NCBI GenBank assembly: GCA_004565275.1
Contig: SDOX01000011.1
Location: 80,724-144,723 of the forward strand
Origin: Nannochloropsis salina CCMP1776
Taxonomy: Eukaryota; Sar; Eustigmatophyceae; Eustigmatales; Monodopsidaceae
Length of the DNA stretch: 64,000 bases
Direction: 5' to 3'
Part shown: in pieces, positions 26,552 through 32,988 of the stretch
How the letters are laid out: each line of letters opens with the position of its first letter
How positions within the stretch are numbered: position 1 is the first letter of the stretch
Notes under the pieces: model-generated
Told to the model about the DNA's origin: nothing
Database searches by the model: none
The model's input: only the letters and a program-made list of their open reading frames with translations
Position numbers and translations under genes: made by a program

Positions 26552-27154
26552 TCACTCCTGGTCACCTTTTTTCAAGTATGCTTGCCACCCATTCCATATT
26601 CTCCATTTTTGTTGTACTTCTGGGTCGTAGAGATCTTTTGGCAACTTCTTAACATCCAAGGCCGTCGCCACAGCCATTGTCTCGGGCAATTCAGCCTCTT
26701 CCTCGCACAAAATACCAATGAGAGTTCCTACTGGTAGGTTTTTAGAGGGGTCGCTGTGGAATGTGCAGGCAAGATATCCGTCCTCTTGCGCTTCCAAGAG
26801 GAGGGTAACCTCCCCTGCGAACTCCCCTTCACGGTGAGCTTCTTCCACCAATGTTGATGTGGTTACCTCGGCAATGATGTCATAGCATAGAAAGGCTTCA
26901 CCTGGAGCTTTGAGCCAGTTTATTTTGCCAGACTTCATATGCGGAGCGAGCTTGGGTAAAGGAATTAAAACGAGGTTTGACGAAATGCAACTAGTGGAGA
27001 CTTGAGGACATGATGAGGTGACACGCCGTGCCACAGGCTGATGACGAGTATACCGACCCAAACAAAGTGCACTATCAAATACCCTTCGCATAACCTTGAA
27101 AGTGCGATGATTTGTAAAGGTGACGATGACAAGGGCAAGGTAAGGGAACCGCAT
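26552..27154 (-). CDS. mitochondrial lipoyl-domain-like protein lacking the lipoylation lysine
   Basis: Single exon. The first ATG (27154) gives 200 residues; the ATG at 27091 gives 179 and starts a good mitochondrial presequence (MRRVFDSALCLGRYTRHQPV). The body follows the lipoyl fold of dihydrolipoamide acyltransferases: IPLPKLAPHMKSGKINWLKA at the start, then DIIAEVTTSTLVEEAH, then LLLEAQEDGYLACTFH and NLPVGTLIGILCEEE. In true lipoyl domains a DKA-type turn carries the lipoyl lysine between these strands. Here the turn is replaced by a longer Lys-free insert, so it cannot be lipoylated in the usual way. The C-terminal tail (LYDPEVQQKWRIWNGWQAYL) is amphipathic. No acyltransferase domain follows. 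A structural subunit of a mitochondrial complex is one possibility. Divergent from the next gene. Confidence 0.65.
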   Translation of the reverse strand: MRFPYLALVIVTFTNHRTFKVMRRVFDSALCLGRYTRHQPVARRVTSSCPQVSTSCISSNLVLIPLPKLAPHMKSGKINWLKAPGEAFLCYDIIAEVTTSTLVEEAHREGEFAGEVTLLLEAQEDGYLACTFHSDPSKNLPVGTLIGILCEEEAELPETMAVATALDVKKLPKDLYDPEVQQKWRIWNGWQAYLKKGDQE

Positions 27155-27362: not shown

Positions 27363-28634
27363 ATGGCAAGTGAAGAGCCGGAAATTGATCCTGCCATCTC
27401 CTCGACCGGGTCAAACGATGTTCCTCAGCACTCTCCGTCCCTCAATCAGACGCGCGATTTTTTGGACCAACAAGTCAACGCGGTGCTCATGAAGGCATTA
27501 ACTGAGATCCAGATTCACAAACCCGAGGATGTCTGTCAAGCTCTTCTCAATTATTTCGAGGATCGGCAAGCAAATGCTGCGGGGATAACGGTCAACGCCG
27601 GAGGACAGTATTCATCCCTGTTTACTTCTGATAAAGGATGCGACATGCATGGCACGATAATCTTGTGGCTAGCTGATCTTCCAACAAAAAATATTAAGGG
27701 AAATAGCGGCGCCGTCGATAGATGGTATGCGGTGCACCACGTGCTGCCCATCCTTGCCCGTCTCCTAAAGCATTTTGCTTCTCAGTGGCCTTTTCCTGTC
27801 GGTGAGGCTCTCGACACGTGCGTCGTGGCTTTTTTGCTTGAGCATCAAGCGAATCAGAAAGGTAAGAGGCTGCCAGAGACATTCGAAGAAGCTGGGAAGC
27901 TGTTAGAAACATTCGAAGAAGCTGGTCAGCAGTTAGAGTGTACCACAAATTCGGATATTCCTGATATTCAGGGCCCCCAGCCACCGAGACTCGCAAATCC
28001 CTACACTGTCCTAGTCCTAGGATATGAGAGCTCTGGGAAATCTACCGTACTTGCAAGCCTCCAAGGTGATCCGTGCCCAACCCCGCTTCCCGCGTCCACA
28101 CTAAATTCGGTACCCGAGCCTGTCACGATCACGCTGGAAAGGCTCTTTGCGAACAGCCCACACACGACCCAGCTCCGGTTCCTCGATGTACCAGGTGACT
28201 CAGACTCACGGGAACATTTGTGGCCCTCCCTGTATCCAGAAGCGCAGGCTGTGGTTTGGGTAGGAGACGCAACTCAAGCCGGGCGGTGGGAGGAGGAAAA
28301 AGAAATTCTGCGCGGTTGCCTGGGCTCTCTTAATCTAAGAGGAAAACCTGTATGGGCTCTGATAAACAAGCAGGACACGGGCTTACCGCACCATAGCCTG
28401 GGAAGAGTGGAGGAGGAAATAAGGGGCTTGACGGAGTGTACAGAGATGAAGAAAGCAGAATATGAGGGGTCAGAAAGCGTGAAGGTCAAGGAGCAGATTT
28501 CCAGCGAGCGCATGACCTTGCGGGTGGATGGATGCATTGCCGAGGCCCGATGCAACTTCGGAGTCTTGGACCCGACCCTGGAGCAAGGGTTAGCTTGGCT
28601 TGTTAAGGCCATACAAGGACACGATGGGAAGTAA
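27363..28634 (+). CDS. DPY-30-motif plus Arf/ARL-like GTPase fusion protein
   Basis: Single exon, 423 residues from the ATG at 27363. Upstream in-frame sequence is not protein-like, so this start is preferred. Residues about 30-70 (FLDQQVNAVLMKALTEIQIH then KPEDVCQALLNYFEDRQ) match the DPY-30/RII-like dimerisation motif, a two-helix module known from adenylate kinases, Set1/MLL complexes and ciliary proteins. A linker with an internal duplication (ETFEEAGKLL / ETFEEAGQQL) leads to a GTPase domain: P-loop LGYESSGKST, DxxG-type RFLDVPGD and base-recognition ALINKQD, typical of Arf/ARL/SR-beta GTPases. There is no N-terminal Gly for myristoylation directly before the G domain. Function unknown; it may recruit the GTPase to a helical anchor. 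The clear motifs and spacing make a real gene likely. Confidence 0.72.
   Translation: MASEEPEIDPAISSTGSNDVPQHSPSLNQTRDFLDQQVNAVLMKALTEIQIHKPEDVCQALLNYFEDRQANAAGITVNAGGQYSSLFTSDKGCDMHGTIILWLADLPTKNIKGNSGAVDRWYAVHHVLPILARLLKHFASQWPFPVGEALDTCVVAFLLEHQANQKGKRLPETFEEAGKLLETFEEAGQQLECTTNSDIPDIQGPQPPRLANPYTVLVLGYESSGKSTVLASLQGDPCPTPLPASTLNSVPEPVTITLERLFANSPHTTQLRFLDVPGDSDSREHLWPSLYPEAQAVVWVGDATQAGRWEEEKEILRGCLGSLNLRGKPVWALINKQDTGLPHHSLGRVEEEIRGLTECTEMKKAEYEGSESVKVKEQISSERMTLRVDGCIAEARCNFGVLDPTLEQGLAWLVKAIQGHDGK

Positions 28635-29503: not shown

Positions 29504-32988
<3,485 letters not shown>

Follow-up and report, generated by a model that had tools for sequence, protein, structure and literature searches.

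A single open reading frame (ORF; Table 1) in a 64,000-nucleotide stretch of contig SDOX01000011.1 from Nannochloropsis salina CCMP1776 (the window; guanine-cytosine content 54.7%) probably encodes, judging from its sequence, a divergent Arl13 GTPase with an N-terminal extension of the dimerisation and docking (D/D) type. The Arl13 assignment is made because the best relative of the G domain with a solved structure is ARL13B. The gene is real, and its architecture is already documented. An earlier note, written from the letters of the window, had placed a DPY-30/RII-like motif and an Arf-family G domain in one gene, and both were recovered with Pfam, whose Arf profile matched residues 214-340 (E 2.3e-12, 47.2 bits, above the cut-off) and whose Dpy-30 profile matched residues 29-61 (profile positions 1-33 of 42; E 7.4e-4). 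The profile comparison that the note had proposed was thus clear for Arf and fell short for Dpy-30, which reached 19.6 bits against a curated cut-off of 22. The motifs LGYESSGKST, LDVPGD and NKQD, on which the note had relied, are all present in the translation.

When the G domain was searched against the PDB, the top two among the best 60 of 164 matching sequences were 4m9q and 5di3 chain B, both ARL13B, identical to each other over the printed stretch and, we assume, from Chlamydomonas. Other Arf-like proteins trailed from E 1e-4, with ARL13B ahead by about 11 bits. Identity to ARL13B extended to 39 of 115 aligned residues (about 34%), and among seven Arf-family sequences compared, ARL13B scored highest against the GTPase (133; next 118). 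The alignment also showed that the arginine preceding the switch II tryptophan is kept; this residue presumably corresponds to human R79. Its trypanosome counterpart is required for rescue (PMC6140319). The sole NCBIfam match was small_GTP, at 23.4 bits against a cut-off of 42.5. Searching the genome with the whole protein revealed no second copy of the fusion, the only other match being a weak one (E 7e-4) to an Arfrp1-like gene, and a pattern search of viral_contigs for relatives gave seven matches and no relatives.

The N-terminal motif, D/D-1, was compared with two proteins of the same genome, the true DPY-30 (L001) and a guanylate kinase with an RIIa domain (L034). Both alignments were ungapped over the helix pair; of 2000 shuffles, 0 reached the score of 50 with DPY-30 and 1 reached the score of 36 with the kinase. 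This pairwise test is weak, because 613 of 2000 shuffles reached the score between the two genome proteins themselves, DPY-30 and the RIIa kinase. With the N-terminal half alone as query, the Dpy-30 match rose to 20.7 bits (E 3.4e-4). A whole-protein AlphaFold model from the single sequence (predicted local distance difference test, pLDDT, 36) placed two helices at the N-terminus (Table 1), where the earlier note had held that a structure prediction lacking them would speak against it; a pLDDT of 36 is too low to confirm the pair, which is predicted with low confidence. The guanylate kinase is itself another docking-domain fusion, with an N-terminal RIIa-type D/D at 24.3 bits, over the cut-off of 22.4 (L034:1129-2187; G000 C52:896595).

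Several results weigh against this reading of the protein. D/D-1 differs from the DPY-30/RIIa family, which it otherwise resembles, in scoring below the Pfam cut-off; when the whole genome was searched with the Dpy-30 profile, the true DPY-30 alone came out at E <= 0.001, and not the GTPase locus, and a PDB search with the N-terminal half found three chance matches and no DPY-30 or RII chain. In a tree of eight rows, ARL13B was nearest to the GTPase by path, with none of the five inner branches starred and with a GTPase branch of 4.96 changes per column. The identity of about one third to ARL13B and a tree without supported branches would also be expected of a lineage-specific Arf-like GTPase that is not Arl13 and gained its D/D independently. 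We consider this improbable, given the lead of ARL13B in the PDB search, a switch II without glutamine, and an architecture like that of stramenopile Arl13 (PMC8358228).

The earlier note knew of no pairing of this motif with an Arf-family GTPase. The pairing is not new, because papers on Trypanosoma brucei and stramenopile Arl13 describe it (PMC6140319, PMC8358228). In T. brucei Arl13, the N-terminal D/D associates with itself; the protein cannot dock on the axoneme or become enriched in the flagellum without it, and the coiled coil is indispensable (Zhang et al. 2018, PMC6140319). The comparison with RII-style anchoring that the note had drawn is upheld. One D/D copy is present on kinetoplastid and Euglena Arl13 (PMC6140319, PMC8358228), and two tandem DD_RI_PKA domains are present in some of the Arl13 proteins of oomycetes and ochrophytes (Vargova et al. 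2021, PMC8358228). The same study holds the stramenopile D/D to be an independent gain, mentions a conserved N-terminal extension in its methods, and regards the coiled coil after the G domain as ancestral, with 11 of 70 Arl13 genes departing variously from the ancestral layout. The available parts of Elias et al. 2016 (PMC4736243) name ARL13 just in a general list.

Like the stramenopile proteins with tandem D/D, the GTPase studied here has a D/D-type extension N-terminal to an Arl13-like G domain; it differs in that its second D/D is a plausible helix pair at most, no coiled coil follows, and Arl3 was not recognised. With T. brucei Arl13 it shares the N-terminal D/D, the missing switch II glutamine and the lack of a long C-terminal tail, whereas the trypanosome protein possesses a coiled coil, has Arl3 as a partner and acts in a flagellum of conventional type. 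The presumed Chlamydomonas ARL13B resembles it in the G domain and differs in having no D/D. According to work cited in PMC6140319, ARL13B is also an Arl3 activator with a coiled coil.

A second helix pair, the candidate D/D-2, fits the published tandem layout and is plausible from structural models. It appeared in the full-length model (pLDDT 36), and modelling residues 112-172 separately also gave two helices (pLDDT 69). The sequence comparisons do not support it, which weighs against the proposed Arl13 with a D/D extension of the published kind. Pfam gave no Dpy-30 or RIIa match for this stretch and one chance match (E 0.13). Of 2000 shuffles in each case, 64 reached the score against DPY-30, whose alignment had a register other than that of D/D, 1877 reached the score against the RIIa kinase, and 272 that of an internal repeat between D/D-1 and D/D-2. 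Aligning D/D-1, DPY-30 and the RIIa kinase together to D/D-2 with hhalign gave a probability of 0.2%, against 0.1% for a G-domain control; the best alignment pairs VNAVL with VLPIL, proline with proline. Foldseek with the D/D-2 model returned no matches.

The ORF is read in one frame without a stop, with an alternative start at an ATG at 27153, 70 codons upstream. Codon usage, trained on the dynein genes of the genome, scored 0.136 bits per codon in this frame; the five alternative frames ranged from -0.146 to 0.038. One of nine 50-codon blocks (201-250) was negative, and block 251-300 scored below the downstream non-coding control (0.040). This weak stretch, residues 201-300, lies at the junction of linker and G domain and would fit a wrongly joined ORF or a pair of neighbouring genes, in which case the fusion would not be real; the single open frame and the occurrence of this fusion in relatives described before (PMC8358228) make that very improbable. 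The description of the gene as intronless in the earlier note has to be qualified by one candidate intron. The donor at 27862 forms GT-AG pairs that for the most part disrupt the frame or enclose very few bases, and one in-frame pair spans 75 bases (27862-27936). An intron over the duplicated linker is therefore possible, and its splicing would remove the duplication and leave both domains joined. The duplication itself, which the note had called fresh and in frame, is a real 30-base tandem repeat, and it is only moderately fresh because 26 of 30 bases are identical between the repeat units.

The GTPase stop codon (28632-28634) stands directly after the G domain, and by eye no coiled coil was recognised in the three forward frames over about 1 kb from 28501. 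Searches of the genome, which comprises 26.5 Mb in 103 contigs, used 11 Pfam families and the GTPase itself as queries. Among them, the Arf profile had 35 matches, often to single exons, and 30 were read; the other five scored 16.1 to 21.9 bits. No Arl3 or Arl6 was recognised among these 30 of 35 matches. The closest candidate to Arl3 (L005) was Arl2 by PDB search; the PDB checks in this set identified Arl2 and one Arf. We take the remaining matches read to be of Arf, Arl1, Arfrp1, Sar1, Rab, Ran, Rag and G-alpha types. GMP_PDE_delta, a family of Arl3 effectors, had no match in the genome in a Pfam search run without a positive control. Because neither a coiled coil nor Arl3 was found, a role as Arl3 exchange factor is unlikely, and the protein is probably no longer an Arl3 activator. 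As a separate observation, two Arf1-like genes seem to lie near each other on opposite strands (L010, L019, L021, L026, L028, L029 and L033; G000 C77:53075-56584).

The genome also holds part of a flagellar gene set. A Pfam search found at least four dynein heavy chain loci (a first look gave four candidates, all of which were scored). PDB searches with 3330, 3300 and 3329 aa of three loci and 1506 aa of the fourth gave as best matches an ‘outer arm dynein beta heavy chain’; a ‘dynein heavy chain, outer arm protein’ or alpha chain, followed by DNAH5 among others; a gamma heavy chain of the outer-arm complex, one entry of which is also labelled inner-arm I1; and, for the fourth, cytoplasmic dynein 1 (DYNC1H1). 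The three outer-arm chains have open frames of 4191, 5039 and 4570 codons. Neither an inner-arm chain nor DYNC2H1, the dynein of intraflagellar transport (IFT), was present among the four loci found. IFT57 (profile positions 1-184 of 360), IFT140, IFT144/WDR19 and SAS-6 (profile positions 55-135 of 135) were matched, and IFT46 was found as three exon pieces, one of them above the cut-off. The four IFT/SAS-6 family searches gave no match over the cut-off in 14 named control genomes.

These findings bear on the published record. Thalassiosira pseudonana has the same dynein classes, and its gamete flagella lack inner arms and DYNC2 (Wickstead and Gull 2007, PMC2239267). In Nannochloropsis, flagella were concluded to be lost, with 29 flagellum-associated genes in N. 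oceanica and 17 in N. gaditana (Guo et al. 2019, PMC6610115), including four and two inner-arm genes and two and one radial-spoke genes, respectively. These counts are hard to square with a set limited to outer arms, unless the genes counted are not heavy chains. Nannochloropsis is reported to lack RABL2 (Elias et al. 2016, PMC4736243). In Monodopsis, whose zoospores have never been documented, flagella-related genes were found, and meiosis genes suggest cryptic sexual stages (Yang et al. 2021, PMC8570151). The earlier note had argued that no ciliary role is expected in algae without flagella. That argument is weakened by the likeness to ARL13B, the outer-arm dyneins, the four IFT proteins and SAS-6, and it retains some force in that an axonemal dynein has been reported in other non-flagellate algae (PMC2239267). 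As read from sequence, the gene inventory tends to favour a flagellum that is reduced and hidden, which it cannot itself show.

Since this gene set is kept, with only outer-arm dyneins as far as found, the GTPase likely serves a reduced flagellum or its basal body. By analogy with T. brucei Arl13, the D/D domain would dimerise the protein and grip an amphipathic helix on a partner in the flagellum or basal body, and the docked D/D would hold the G domain in place; with P-loop and NKQD kept, the G domain should bind GTP. A docked GTPase switch with a target other than Arl3 seems likelier than an Arl3 activator, and the switch would perhaps serve a flagellum, or its basal body, that has gone unobserved. 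The fullest form of this proposal, which we advance only tentatively, is an unobserved flagellum with outer arms only, like that of Thalassiosira gametes, run by a D/D-docked Arl13 that has lost both Arl3 and the Arl3-activating coiled coil. Several points tell against the docked, flagellar Arl13 in general. No flagellated stage has been reported in Nannochloropsis (PMC4736243, PMC6610115). Non-flagellate algae keep one inner-arm (axonemal) dynein (PMC2239267), so such genes alone are no proof of a flagellum. RSP4/6 had no match in the genome in a Pfam search without a positive control, and RSP3 stayed below the threshold (19.9 bits vs 26.4); the D/D partner suggested in the literature may therefore be absent. 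As an observation in its own right, the sub-threshold RSP3 match lies in a 757-aa ORF (L035:607-2877, minus strand; G000 C47), a possible divergent D/D partner.

The same facts can be read as the trace of a flagellum that is gone, with a relict Arl13 that was either exapted as a cytoplasmic protein, its D/D anchoring it elsewhere (a spindle pole or a SAS-6-containing centre), or is drifting towards loss. Such a history would account for a GTPase without a coiled coil and with a long tree branch, for the failure to recognise Arl3 in the Arf-profile matches read, for the reported absence of flagellated stages and of RABL2 in Nannochloropsis (PMC4736243), for the loss of most flagellar genes there (PMC6610115), and for an axonemal dynein that can persist without flagella (PMC2239267). 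We nevertheless regard it as rather unlikely, as the GTPase frame is itself intact and the three very long open frames of the outer-arm dyneins point to selection on all three. With the fusion already documented, what the gene adds is a test case, an Arl13 for which neither Arl3 nor a coiled coil was recognised, alongside a partial flagellar gene set. It raises the questions of whether Arl13 has work besides activating Arl3, and whether a flagellated stage is hidden in these algae; such a stage would matter for the sex and breeding of production strains.

Table 1. Features of the GTPase gene (window coordinates) and flagellar loci of the genome (locus handles).
Feature	Position or locus	Strand	Remarks
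ORF with D/D domain(s) and Arl13-like G domain	27363..28634	+	423 aa plus stop; frame open throughout
D/D-1, Dpy-30/RIIa-type helix pair, residues 27-66	27441..27560	+	helices 27-48 and 54-66 (low-confidence model); Pfam match 29-61
Candidate D/D-2, second helix pair, residues 116-166	27708..27860	+	models only; not significant by sequence
In-frame tandem duplication in linker, ETFEEAG twice	27875..27937	+	30-base unit, 2.1 copies, 87% matches
Arf-family G domain, residues 213-419	27999..28619	+	Pfam Arf covers 214-340, remainder read by eye; closest PDB sequence ARL13B
P-loop GYESSGKS	28020..28043	+	read from sequence
Switch II DVPGD	28185..28199	+	DxxG kept, no catalytic Gln (Arl13 trait, PMC6140319)
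NKQD guanine-specificity motif	28365..28376	+	read from sequence
Four dynein loci	L037/L048, L038/L050, L039/L052, L040/L054 (G000 C99, C35, C52, C78)		outer-arm alpha, beta, gamma types and DYNC1H1
IFT140, IFT144/WDR19, IFT57, IFT46, SAS-6 genes	L045, L046, L036, L041-L043, L044		Pfam searches

Two further features of the window were also noted. A run of exactly 100 N at 31880-31979 is probably an assembly gap or a withheld stretch. Head to head with the GTPase gene lies an ORF of 200 aa (26552-27154, minus strand) that had no Pfam match and appears lipoyl-domain-like by eye only.
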